Shown here in pieces: positions 17,237 through 27,191 of a stretch of 64,000 nucleotides of DNA; position 1 is the first letter of the stretch, and each line of letters opens with the position of its first letter. The translations under genes were made by a program, and so were the position numbers. Below the pieces are notes generated by a model. It was not told the DNA's origin. It ran no database searches and saw only the letters and a program-made list of their open reading frames with translations. The DNA comes from Desulfobacteraceae bacterium (GTDB lineage: Bacteria; Desulfobacterota; DSM-4660; Desulfatiglandales; Desulfatiglandaceae). The stretch covers positions 81,792 to 145,791 of the forward strand of contig JAUWMR010000003.1 in the NCBI GenBank assembly GCA_030613055.1. Reading direction: 5' to 3'.

Positions 17237-17350
17237 TCACCCACCCTCACCAAGATATTGGAGGCACCGGCACATGGCCATCTCGATATCCAAGCTGCCG
17301 CATATCCGCACTGTTACCTGCCGGAAGAAATCGTTTTCGTCTATGATCAT
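17237..17350 (-). pseudogene. Relic of the sigma-54 activator gene start (33 codons)
   Basis: From an ATG at 17350 the minus strand reads MIIDENDFFRQVTVRICGS and on to CRCLQYL, nearly identical to the first 33 residues of the intact activator at 25256-26797. It then runs into unrelated GT/GA-rich sequence and a stop at 17237. It keeps the AAGGAG site. It shows that a full regulator copy probably once lay here, divergent from the beta-oxidation operon. Confidence 0.85.
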
Positions 17351-17400
17351 AATATTCTCCTTCTGGGTGGTGGCAAAGCCGGCAGATCGTTCAATCAAAG

Positions 17401-17442
17401 TGCCATATTTGGAACATTAACACACATGTGCCAAATATGGCA
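17401..17442. promoter_or_regulatory. Palindromic upstream activator site, copy 1
   Basis: TGCCATATTTGG (17401-17412) and CCAAATATGGCA (17431-17442) are perfect 12-bp inverted arms around an 18-nt centre that has its own ACAT/ATGT symmetry. It ends about 75 bp before the -24 element, the usual place for an enhancer bound by a sigma-54 activator. Confidence 0.75.
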
Positions 17443-17513
17443 ATTTCTTTTGCCATTATTGACCCTTTGAACAGGGCTACTTGCTAACAGTTTGATTTTA
17501 TTAAAATAATATC

Positions 17514-17530
17514 TTGGCATGGTTTATGCT
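17514..17530 (+). promoter_or_regulatory. Sigma-54 promoter of the second beta-oxidation operon
   Basis: TTGGCATGGTTTATGCT fits the sigma-54 consensus, with GG at 17516-17517, exactly ten bases, then GC at 17528-17529. It lies 64 bp before the first gene and is preserved in the second module copy. Confidence 0.82.
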
Positions 17531-17593
17531 TATTCAAATTATGAGCTATAAACAATTTGCTATAAGCTGGAAAAATGATGGAAGGAAAGGTTT

Positions 17594-18749
17594 ATGGATT
17601 TTGAAATCCCGGAAAACCTGCGAATGATACAGGAGACCATCCGCCGTTTTGTAAAACAGGACCTTGAACCCATCTCTCAGAAGGTGGAGGATGAGGATCA
17701 CATTCCAGAGGAGATTGTCCAGAAGATGCGTGAATTGGGCCTGTTTGGCCTCTCCATCCCCGAGGATTATGGTGGTCTGGGCTTGGGGGCGCTTGGGGAA
17801 TGCCTGGTCTATGAGGAACTGACCAAGACCAACGCCGCCTTTCGATCCCGCATCGGAACGAGCAACGGCATCGGTTCCATGGGTATCCTGCTTGACGGTA
17901 CGGAAGACCAGAAGCAAAAATACCTGCCTAAGATTGCCAGCGGGGAGTGGACTGCCTGCTTTGCCTTGTCAGAACCCGAGGCAGGTTCTGATGCGGGCAA
18001 TGTTCAGACCACAGCGGAGCGGGATGGTGAACATTTTATTATCAACGGGCTGAAGCATTTTATTACCAACGGTGATGTGGCCGATCTGGCCACAGTGATG
18101 ACCGTGACCGATAAAGAGAAGAGAACCCGGGGAGGGATTACCGCTTTTGCGGTGGAGAAAGAAACGCCCGGGTTTTACGTGGGGACCATCGAGCGCAAAA
18201 TGGGTTTGCGGGGCAAGCCACACATGCGAGCTGATCTTTGACAACTGTCGCCTCCCGGTGGAGAGCGTCATTGGCGGCGAGCCCATGATCGGTCAGGGCT
18301 TTAAAACAGCCATGCGGGTCCTTGACAAGGGCCGTCTCACCATGGGGTCATGCGCACTTGGGGCAGCTCAAAAGCTGTTGGACCTGTGTGTAGCTTACTC
18401 AAAGGAACGGGTCCAATTCGGCAAACCCATTTTTAAGTTTCAGTCAGTAGGGAATATGCTGGCAGATATGGCAACGGAAATCTACGCGGCCAGGCAGATG
18501 CTCTACCACGCGGCATGGTTGAGGGACCAGGGAAAAAAGGTGATAAAGGAGGCCTCCATGGTGAAGCTCTTTTGCACGGAAATGGGGTGCAGGGTGGCTG
18601 ACAATGCACTACAGGTCTTCGGTGGCATGGGCTACATGAAGGATTTTCCTGTTGAACGGTTTTATCGGGATCTTCGTCTATACCGGATCTACGAAGGCAC
18701 CAGCGAAATTCAACGGCTGGTGATCGCCCGCGAGTTGACAAAGGACTAA
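17594..18749 (+). pseudogene. Acyl-CoA dehydrogenase with a +1 frameshift
   Basis: Encodes a standard short acyl-CoA dehydrogenase of about 385 residues in two frames. The first 215 codons run to RKMGLRGKP; the second frame resumes at TCELIFDNCRLPVESV and ends at 18749. One extra C near 18221 (CCACACATG for CCAACATG) explains the break. All other family marks are intact, including CFALSEPEAGSDAG and IYEGTSEIQ with the catalytic Glu. It may be a recent mutation or a sequencing error. It is the first gene behind the sigma-54 promoter. RBS GGAAAGG before the ATG. Confidence 0.88.
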
Positions 18750-18786
18750 AATTTGAATCACGGATTTTCATAAAGGAGGATTATAG

Positions 18787-24807: not shown

Positions 24808-25196
24808 CGCTGGCCTGCAATAGAACTCTCTGGAACTGAGAGGGCTTACGGTGAAGCTGTCAAGGCCGTTTGTGCTGATCCCGGAGTGGATGCGCTGTTT
24901 CTGCACATTTTTGTCGGAGGGTTGGCAAGGCATCTTGAAATTTCTTCTATCGTTAAGGTTGTCCGGGATGCCGGGAAGCCACTGTTTTGTTGGCTTCTGG
25001 GAAAGCGCAAGGAAGCCAGAGAATTTCACAAGCAGGTCCAGGATATGGGCATTCCGGTTTACCGTGAACTGTACCGGGCCGTTGAATGCATGGTGGCCGT
25101 CCTTTCCCGCAAATCAGTGAGACAGACATCAACCCGCTCATCGTCGAAAACGGCATGCCTGTTACCGTGGATGCAACAATGATTCTGGAGGGGTAA
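24808..25196 (+). pseudogene. Relic of an ADP-forming acyl-CoA synthetase
   Basis: Fused in frame to the MFS fragment. It reads YGEAVKAVCADPGVDALFL and VVRDAGKPLFCWLLGKRKEA then VYRELYRAVECMVAVLSRK, part of the ligase-CoA domain of NDP-forming acyl-CoA synthetases. After a deletion and frame change near 25112 it ends as ISETDINPLIVENGMPVTVD to a TAA at 25194, the known C-terminus of the ATP-grasp half. The middle is lost, so it is not functional. Confidence 0.75.
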
Positions 25197-25255
25197 TGTG
25201 AATCGCCATAACATCAAACATACGAACGGAAATCAAATCCGAAAGTGAAGGCCCT

Positions 25256-26797
25256 TTACAGGGCGGCCCGACGCCCATACGGTATACCTAATCTCTCCAT
25301 TCGATTTCTAAGGGTGCTTGGGTTTATCCCAAGCAGTTCAGCAGCCCCTCCCGGACCCCGGACTTTTCCTTTTGCCATCTTCAATACCCGCCGGATGTGC
25401 CTCGATACAACCTCGTCAAGTTTAAGCGGTTCATCCTCCGCAACAGGTAAGCCCGAGGTTTCATCTTCTTGTTGGGGCAATATCAACTGGTCTAATTTCA
25501 TGGAACCGGTCTTGTTCAGAATCATGGCACGTTCAAGGATGTTTTCAAGCTCTCGCACGTTGCCCGGCCAATTGTAGGCCATTAGATGGTCAATGGCGCC
25601 AGTGTATAGCTTCGGGGGCGTGTGTAGGTTAAGTTCCCTGGATTTTCGCTCAATCAGGTGATTAACCAATGCAGGGATGTCCCTTTTTCTCTTCCTCAAA
25701 GGCGGAATCATGATGGGAAAGACGTTGAGTCGAAACCACAAATCTTCCCGGAACTGATTCGACTCGACCATGCTTTTCAGGTTCCGATGAGTAGCAGCGA
25801 TAACCCTTATATCAACAGAAATAGGCCCTGATCCTCCTACCCGCTCGATCTCTTTGTGCTGAAGGACTCTGAGCATTCTGAGCTGTGCCTGCGGCGACAG
25901 TTCCCCGATCTCGTCAAGAAAAATGGTTCCCTTATCAGCGCGCTCAAAGCGACCGCGTTTTTGAGCCACGGCTCCGGTAAAAGCCCCCTTCTCGTGTCCA
26001 AAGAGCTCGCTGTCCATCAGGTTCTCCGGAATAGAACCGCAATTGACCTTGATTAACGGTCCATCCCTTCGGGGAGATAAATGATGAATGTCGTTTGCGA
26101 TAAGCTCTTTGCCTACTCCGGTCTCTCCCAGGAGCAACACCGGCGTATTGAGCTGGGCCACCTTTGCGACCATCTCCATTACACCTTTCAAGCCCAGATC
26201 CTTGCCGATGATTTCGTCGCCGGACTGACGCAGGAGCTCTTGATAAAGATAGCGGTTGTCGTCGGTCACCAGGTCCTTCAATTTGGTAACTTCCTGATGC
26301 CTGAGGGCGTTGGAAATGGCGATGGCAAAGGGCTCATTCAACAGTGAAAATAAACGGGCGTGCTCCTCCGAATATCTGTCCTTTCCCTTGGCTCCTAAGG
26401 TAATACCTCCGATTCTCTTGCCTTCGATCACCATGCGCATGACCAAAAATGACCATTCCGGTCTCCCAAAGGATTTGATCACATCCTGCATAACCGTGTC
26501 CTGTTCAGGCCGATTGATGATTTTCACTAAATCCAAGAGGGCCTCCCCTTCAAGGCTGGACCTTGCTTTCTGAGATAGGGGAATTAGCAGATCCATCTTT
26601 CTGCCCTCGGAAGCCGTTGCCCGGGCGATGGTTCGCAAGGCACCAAGACCAGGGTCATAGAGGTTCAGGAACATGGAATCCACGGGCAGAAAACGCTCAA
26701 GATATTGGAGACACCGAAACATCGCCAGCTCGATATACAGGCTGCCGCATATCCGAATGGTTACCTGCCGGAAGAAATCGTTTTCGTCTATGATCAT
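25256..26797 (-). CDS. Sigma-54-dependent transcriptional activator (GAF-AAA+-Fis)
   Basis: Enhancer-binding protein of 513 residues. The N-terminal 190 residues look like a GAF-type sensor. The AAA+ domain has Walker A GETGVGKELIANDIHH, the sigma-54 contact loop GAFTGA and Walker B GTIFLDEIGE. A Fis-type helix-turn-helix closes the protein (GAAELLGINPSTLRNRMERLG). The start at 26797 has AAGGAG in front. It is divergent from a GG-N10-GC promoter and a 12-bp palindrome, so it likely controls the downstream alkylsulfatase-type cluster. The same site before the 17.6-kb operon extends that control. The effector is unknown. Confidence 0.92.
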   Translation of the reverse strand: MIIDENDFFRQVTIRICGSLYIELAMFRCLQYLERFLPVDSMFLNLYDPGLGALRTIARATASEGRKMDLLIPLSQKARSSLEGEALLDLVKIINRPEQDTVMQDVIKSFGRPEWSFLVMRMVIEGKRIGGITLGAKGKDRYSEEHARLFSLLNEPFAIAISNALRHQEVTKLKDLVTDDNRYLYQELLRQSGDEIIGKDLGLKGVMEMVAKVAQLNTPVLLLGETGVGKELIANDIHHLSPRRDGPLIKVNCGSIPENLMDSELFGHEKGAFTGAVAQKRGRFERADKGTIFLDEIGELSPQAQLRMLRVLQHKEIERVGGSGPISVDIRVIAATHRNLKSMVESNQFREDLWFRLNVFPIMIPPLRKRKRDIPALVNHLIERKSRELNLHTPPKLYTGAIDHLMAYNWPGNVRELENILERAMILNKTGSMKLDQLILPQQEDETSGLPVAEDEPLKLDEVVSRHIRRVLKMAKGKVRGPGGAAELLGINPSTLRNRMERLGIPYGRRAAL

Positions 26798-26847
26798 AAT
26801 GTTCTCCTTCTGAGTGGTGGCAAAGCCGCCAGATGGTTCAATCAAAG

Positions 26848-26889
26848 TGCCATATCTGGAACATTAACACACATGTGCCAAATATGGCA
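26848..26889. promoter_or_regulatory. Palindromic upstream activator site, copy 2
   Basis: TGCCATATCTGG (26848-26859) and CCAAATATGGCA (26878-26889) pair in 11 of 12 positions. The distance to the promoter is identical to copy 1. It also lies 51 bp before the activator's own start codon, so autoregulation is possible. Confidence 0.72.
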
Positions 26890-26960
26890 AATTCTTTTGC
26901 CATTATTGACCCTTTGAACAGAGCTATTTGCTAACAGCTTGATTTTATTATAATAATATT

Positions 26961-26977
26961 TTGGCATGGTTTATGCC
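26961..26977 (+). promoter_or_regulatory. Sigma-54 promoter of the alkylsulfatase-type cluster
   Basis: TTGGCATGGTTTATGCC, with GG at 26963-26964, ten bases, and GC at 26975-26976. It faces the + strand genes beginning at 27400. Confidence 0.8.
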
Positions 26978-27191
26978 TATTATGATAGTGGTAGACAAAG
27001 AGAAAGAGTAACCGTTCACAGGTTCAGGGTTCAACGTTCAGGGTTAAGGACAAAGAAGGGATTGAAGACCCGAAGTCCTCGTTAAAAATGCTCATTTTCC
27101 CAAGTAATTGCCAATTTGGCTCCAAATTTTGGATTAGGCCTGTCGAAGATGACGCTTTTTGGGCTTGGTCGCATGGAGGAAAAGACAGATA

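Follow-up and report, generated by a model that had tools for sequence, protein, structure and literature searches.

The 64,000-nt stretch of Desulfobacteraceae DNA analysed here (the window; G000:C19:81792-145791, part of a 4.26-Mb draft assembly that comprises 97 contigs and is 95.6% complete) carries two copies of one 285-bp sigma-54 control module, each preceding a predicted catabolic operon. Copy 2, before operon 2, is joined to an intact sigma-54 activator (enhancer-binding protein, EBP), while copy 1, before the beta-oxidation genes of operon 1, retains only a stump of that activator. We believe, with a probability of roughly 0.6, that copy 1 stands in the place of a different activator that belonged to operon 1 and likely replaced it, so that one activator would now serve both operons.

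The direct repeat (17251-17534 and 26698-26981) was the sole family of at least 40 bp in a repeat scan of the window, and, when the draft genome was searched at the DNA level, it was placed at these two positions only (E 1.1e-146 and 2.9e-116), with no third copy found among the 97 contigs. The copies share one orientation, are spaced 9,447 bp apart, have different flanking sequences and align over 285 bp with 23 mismatches and no indels, in agreement with an earlier, sequence-only reading of this DNA that had described near-identical stretches without net indel. That reading was equally right that each copy holds the first 33 activator codons (ATGs at 26797 in copy 2 and 17350 in copy 1) and a GG-N10-GC promoter, and that copy 2 alone continues into an intact gene (513 aa, as opposed to residues 1-33 in copy 1). 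The repeat is bounded by codon 34 of the leftward-read activator gene and by a point a few bases beyond the -12 box of the rightward-read sigma-54 promoter. In a draft of 97 contigs, such a repeat could conceivably mark the place where two contig parts were wrongly joined; however, 23 sites distinguish the copies, and because the longest exact run common to both is only 41 nt, collapse by the assembler is unlikely and we consider such an artefact extremely improbable.

In the DNA that separates the start of the activator gene from the promoter, the module contains a 42-bp inverted repeat, which is a putative operator for the activator and in copy 1 takes the form TGCCATATTTGG-N18-CCAAATATGGCA. 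A palindrome reported by the sequence-only reading as 12 bp long does exist, but it measures 14 bp (TGCCAAATATGGCA, TGCCA-N4-TGGCA) and overlaps one of the arms of this larger dyad. The sole dyad difference between the copies breaks the symmetry of copy 2, and the better dyad is that of copy 1. The promoter, TTGGCATGGTTTATGC in both copies, has GG-N10-GC at -24/-12 in a TGGCA...TGC context, and a gene for sigma-54 (RpoN) is present in the genome (PF04552, 3.6e-62, G000:C4). Differences between the copies are distributed as 10/100 bp in the stump, 1/42 bp in the dyad, 0/16 bp in the promoter and 12/127 bp in the remainder; operator and promoter together differ at 1/58 positions against 22/227 in the remaining repeat, a marginal result (Fisher p = 0.056) that is no more than suggestive of conservation. 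The 33 common codons show four synonymous and four replacement differences, too few to tell whether the stump was formerly a working gene; its substitution rate does not differ from that of the non-coding parts of the repeat (p = 0.37), and after codon 33 the copy-1 frame runs through four further codons to a stop. A dyad of exactly this span recurs at a few other activator loci (arms matching 12/12 in L072 and 10/12 each in L028 and L077; shuffles average 9.0/12). As a family-wide signature of activator loci the 42-bp dyad was rejected, its exact span lying near the gene in 3/22 other loci only.

The genes that precede operon 1 in relatives indicate what copy 1 may have displaced. With the 3-hydroxyacyl-CoA dehydrogenase (HBD) of operon 1 as bait, 14 other genomes were matched among 46 of the family (own genome included). 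Eight of the 14 have acyl-CoA dehydrogenase 1 (ACAD1) adjoining HBD (at least 73% to ACAD1 of G061) and were taken as operon-1 orthologs; G041, G011, G053, G052, G017 and G015, with an HBD match and no close ACAD1 alongside, were not counted. The contigs of G023, G018 and G001 stop short of the gene upstream of ACAD1, defined as the next frame with a match or of more than 110 aa, leaving five contigs that show it. At all five loci, which were found without an activator as bait, this gene is a co-directional sigma-54 activator, namely EBP468 in four (G049, as a contig-end fragment, G061, G020 and G006) and another EBP in G043, separated from ACAD1 by 381-698 bp in four loci and by 1,520 bp in G061. 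The matching layout is seen in G012 and G045, which were found with EBP468 as bait and so are not independent. A sequence like a sigma-54 promoter, GG[CT]A-N8-GC, occurs upstream of ACAD1 in 6/8 relatives with at least 366 bp of upstream DNA, and the TGCCA-N4-TGG element, present twice in the window, is absent from the upstream regions of nine relatives (coding strand, at most 450 bp and in one case only 83 bp). In the genome studied here no EBP468 ortholog was detected at E <= 1e-140, the best match (C6:41892) being 46% identical. Since most of these relatives carry EBP468 at this position and no ortholog was detected in its own genome, operon 1 would most likely have been under EBP468 and sigma-54 in the past, and its present control would be foreign to it. 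The earlier suggestion that two operons were placed under one regulator by DNA duplication is borne out to the extent that a foreign module before operon 1 is the most likely arrangement, but to call this a clear example of promoter capture was too strong.

Two side observations concern EBP468. A TGTAGA/TCTACA element, spotted by eye afterwards, lies upstream of ACAD1 in 7/8 relatives (G049, G061, G023, G012, G045, G020 and G006) and not in the window, and is a possible candidate for the EBP468 operator. Contig C6 of the same genome (G000:C6; L209 and L071) carries a paralog of operon 1 (60% for its large acyl-CoA dehydrogenase) that has a co-directional EBP468-like activator (46%) in front and a ligase gene in pieces.

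The DNA to the left of copy 1 bears on how the module arrived. The ATP-binding cassette (ABC) transporter ATPase gene at this site has about 75 N-terminal residues fewer than an intact homolog, the Walker A motif being among those missing. It shares the minus strand with the stump, with low-complexity filler containing repeats of the type CTTATCACC between them. Because one deletion explains both the stump and the headless ABC gene, we prefer a copy of the whole activator followed by a deletion to insertion of a bare promoter, the fit to the former being better. It is rather unlikely, in our opinion, that the 285-bp piece alone was copied before operon 1 in one step, without the whole activator gene. 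Such an event would account for the sharp limits of the repeat, and further activator sequence was not found at copy 1, where the protein match covers residues 1-33 only; yet about 38 bp separate the left end of the repeat from another broken gene, and a chance end inside coding sequence would require separate losses of the ABC 5' part and of EBP468.

The intact activator has a sigma-54 AAA+ domain (PF00158, 1.7e-68), a Fis-type helix-turn-helix match just under its cut-off (HTH_8, E 1.8e-4, 21.6 of 22 bits) and a GAF match that is also below the Pfam cut-off. Sigma-54 activator-like matches in the genome number 27 besides the stump (28 with it), and the other activators are 35-50% identical to this one over the matched part. 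Apart from the genome itself, none of the 46 family genomes has the module or a near activator at E <= 1e-190. In a wider contig search the best match, among the matches listed, was L091 (55%), and Desulfobacteraceae metagenome-assembled genomes (L092 and L093) were matched as well; homologs in protein databases reach 87% (P0002) and 79% (P0003), their contigs being 2.4 and 3.4 kb long. Across 23 activator-family loci, the window included and L096 (43%) left out, a divergent sigma-54-like site lies 130-230 bp upstream of the activator in 13, where base shuffles give an expectation of 0.24. Given that relatives keep another activator at operon 1, and that copy 2 has this frequent divergent layout, copy 1 is probably the derived copy and occupies the position expected for an activator belonging to operon 1.

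The opposite polarity, in which copy 1 is native to operon 1, the activator was originally operon 1's and copy 2 is derived, appears very unlikely to us. Ancestral-looking states are kept in copy 1, namely the perfect dyad and residue 21, which is acidic in 100/102 anchored homologs (17/119 homologs without the FFR anchor having been left out) and is Asp in copy 1 and Tyr in the intact activator; moreover, the divergent gene in front of the operon-2 genes of G017 is of the TetR type and not an EBP. However, a different EBP precedes operon 1 in 5/5 independently found relatives with visible upstream DNA, and copy 2 shows the divergent layout together with an intact gene. Comparison of the homologs suggests that the intact activator probably changed at residue 21 after the copies parted. 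Compared with P0002, the homolog closest to it, the activator is also a mosaic: 192/196 positions match in residues 1-196 and only 252/317 in residues 197-513, a part over which P0002 and P0003 agree at 284/317. This points to a swap of the sensor half among related activators.

Operon 1 has one intact predicted enzyme left for every step of beta-oxidation (dehydrogenase, hydratase, hydroxyacyl-CoA dehydrogenase and thiolase). In G049, G061 and G023 an acyl-CoA ligase gene lies between HBD and the large acyl-CoA dehydrogenase (ACADbig); the corresponding gap in the window is 16 bp, without a ligase. The state of the operon would fit trimming to serve operon 2 and would also fit an operon on its way out, and its frameshifts may derive from draft-assembly error, as the paralogous ligase on contig C6 is likewise in pieces. 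We consider it unlikely that operon 1 has become a pseudo-operon, with copy 1 a relic that plays no part in regulation: two of six genes are broken, the relatives' ligase gene is missing and a frame resembling fused fragments lies in the same region, but an intact gene persists for each step, and it is copy 1 that has the perfect dyad (12/12), with a promoter identical to that of copy 2. The frame in question (24493-25182), between operon 1 and the activator, joins a transporter-like N-terminus, recognised by eye, to a weak CoA-ligase piece (Pfam 7e-4, below cut-off) and is probably remnant debris.

Operon 2, to judge from its domains (Table 1), would lead from an alkyl sulfate through the alcohol, aldehyde and acid to an acyl-CoA; its alkylsulfatase-like genes are, we assume, SdsA1-like. 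Between promoter copy 2 and the first of these genes, a 70-aa frame (27149-27361) resembles a sulfatase C-terminus (Pfam SGSH_C, E 0.016, below cut-off), and a similar short frame (L070:10169-10342, minus strand) lies upstream of the orthologous alkylsulfatase-like gene in G017. In G009 a sigma-54-like site, TGGCATGGTTTTGGCA (L069:542-557), similar to the window's promoter, lies upstream of the orthologous alkylsulfatase-like gene; no activator was seen in the 715 bp before that gene, where the contig ends.

Table 1. Features of the control modules and the neighbouring operons, in window positions.
Feature	Position	Strand	Details and source
Copy 1 of control module	17251..17535	.	repeat scan, genome DNA search, alignment
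Copy 2 of control module, joined to intact activator	26698..26982	.	repeat scan, genome DNA search, alignment
Stump: first 33 codons of activator, start codon kept	17252..17350	-	alignment, protein search
Putative activator operator, copy 1 (42-bp inverted repeat)	17401..17442	.	arms 12/12; copy-1 sequence
Putative operator, copy 2	26848..26889	.	arms 11/12; dyad comparison
Predicted sigma-54 -24/-12 promoter, copy 1, identical to copy 2	17514..17529	+	64 bp 5' of operon 1's first gene
Predicted sigma-54 promoter of operon 2	26961..26976	+	423 bp 5' of operon 2's first gene
Intact sigma-54 activator (EBP), 513 aa	25256..26797	-	domain search, genome protein search
ABC-transporter ATPase gene without 5' part	16735..17212	-	tblastn: homolog residues 83-224 of 229 only
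Low-complexity filler, about 38 bp, between ABC remnant and stump	17213..17250	.	sequence
Operon 1: ACAD1	17594..18749	+	frameshifted ~18135-18241; pieces 17594-18241 and 18147-18749
Operon 1: HBD	18787..19656	+	frame intact
Operon 1: ACADbig, 595 aa	19673..21460	+	frame intact
Operon 1: thiolase A	21495..22524	+	broken by frameshift and internal deletion of ~50 codons
Operon 1: thiolase B	22518..23783	+	frame intact
Operon 1: enoyl-CoA hydratase	23850..24620	+	frame intact
Predicted operon 2	27400..38485	+	domain search
Operon 2: metallo-beta-lactamase-fold alkylsulfatase-like gene	27400-28779	+	metallo-beta-lactamase and alkylsulfatase dimerisation domains
Operon 2: acyl-CoA ligase	28772-30319	+	
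Operon 2: metallo-beta-lactamase-fold alkylsulfatase-like gene	30349-32067	+	metallo-beta-lactamase, alkylsulfatase dimerisation and C-terminal domains
Operon 2: TRAP permease	32122-34050	+	
Operon 2: TAXI-like binding protein	34091-35185	+	below model's cut-off
Operon 2: Fe-alcohol dehydrogenase	35372-36640	+	
Operon 2: aldehyde:ferredoxin oxidoreductase	36653-38485	+	

Several points weigh against replacement of operon 1's own activator by copy 1. Two of the six operon-1 genes (ACAD1 and thiolase A) are broken, and the operon may be decaying instead of having been recruited. The p value of 0.056 for conservation of operator and promoter is not significant, binding of the activator to the 42-bp dyad is something that we infer, and a dyad of this span lies within 100 bp of the gene at only 3 of the 22 other activator loci. 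The divergent sigma-54 layout is missing from 10 of the 23 loci and, among the four closest homologs, from three (L192, L193 and L194; 60-62% identical), a looser pattern giving one candidate in L193; since the layout is not universal in the family, the argument for polarity is a statistical one. The absence of EBP468 rests on a draft assembly and is not proof. Nor is copy 1 a recent duplicate of copy 2 in its present form, because the family's acidic residue 21 is kept in copy 1 only. Finally, an intermediate with two intact activators was not found in any genome searched. The sequence-only reading would have been refuted by related genomes that pair both sites with two intact regulators; no such relative was found, but of the 85 genomes searched from the order, the 84 others give a best activator match that is only 63% identical.

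Based on the two copies, the relatives and the junction, our model for the exchange of regulators is as follows. First, a second copy of the activator with its divergent control region would have arisen before operon 1 by duplication and taken the place of the activator and promoter native to it. One deletion, extending between the interior of the neighbouring ABC ATPase gene and codon 33 of this new activator gene, would then have left the stump beside the headless ABC gene. The remaining activator would bind to the 42-bp dyad in each copy, and one common signal would fire the two sigma-54 promoters. The gain would be that operon 2, with uptake, alkylsulfatase-like hydrolases, alcohol and aldehyde oxidation and an acyl-CoA ligase, makes the acyl-CoA that the ligase-less operon 1 degrades. 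Tentatively, and with somewhat less than even confidence, we extend this to a natural swap, fixed in a wild genome, in which a beta-oxidation operon gave up the sigma-54 activator that it had and adopted the complete switch of its neighbour. The two operons would form a single regulon leading from an alkyl-sulfate-like substrate as far as acetyl-CoA, and a ligase, one dehydrogenase and one thiolase that the merger made redundant would have been lost afterwards.

No third target of this regulon was found. The genome has TGCCA-N4-TGGCA at 11 places (22 strand hits), compared with one for the backwards control pattern, and two of these are copies 1 and 2. Of the other nine, eight fall within open frames that exceed 200 codons, the frame around the ninth having 140, and no sigma-54-like site, by the pattern used, was present within 1 kb around any of them.

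Promoter capture by duplication reportedly underlies Cit+ E. coli (rnk-citT). Duplication-driven activation of transferred genes is described in a further study (PMC11111574), in which, as would be the case here, silent or differently controlled genes gain a promoter via duplicated DNA; in contrast, ours is a natural genome with a predicted activator-dependent sigma-54 promoter, and relatives suggest that an earlier sigma-54 activator was operon 1's own. For Pseudomonas fluorescens, one report describes rewiring between RpoN-dependent enhancer-binding proteins and also one promoter-capture mutation (PMC10621929). As would be so in our case, a sigma-54 activator gains control of another's targets, but there the first step is a mutated partner kinase of the activator, and promoter capture is discussed as a route to higher expression of the activator, whereas here the DNA before the target operon would have been exchanged. 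Divergent one-component activators are common in Desulfovibrio, for which the searched text of one study gives six one-component EBP genes divergent from sigma-54 promoters, mentions one palindromic site and does not contain the strings 'duplicat' or 'paralog' (PMC4641369); the layout is that of copy 2, with different EBPs and targets. Within the Desulfobacteraceae, sigma-54-type one-component activators are encoded beside catabolic modules, adjoining pathway genes as here, but what that source describes, in the part consulted, is their conservation in different strains and no exchange (PMC11887813). Literature on this locus or on such a duplicated sigma-54 control region was not found in titles and the beginnings of abstracts, subscription journals being mostly outside coverage.

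Capture of promoters through duplication is already known, as is takeover by a second sigma-54 activator, and what the window adds is a natural, polarised case. Takeover of sigma-54 activator targets is known from laboratory evolution; a natural case is useful in that the state before (in relatives), the state after (in this genome) and the scar (the stump and the headless ABC gene) can all be read. If our interpretation is true, an organism with 27 sigma-54 activator-like matches can merge regulons via copied control DNA, and not by mutation of the regulatory proteins.

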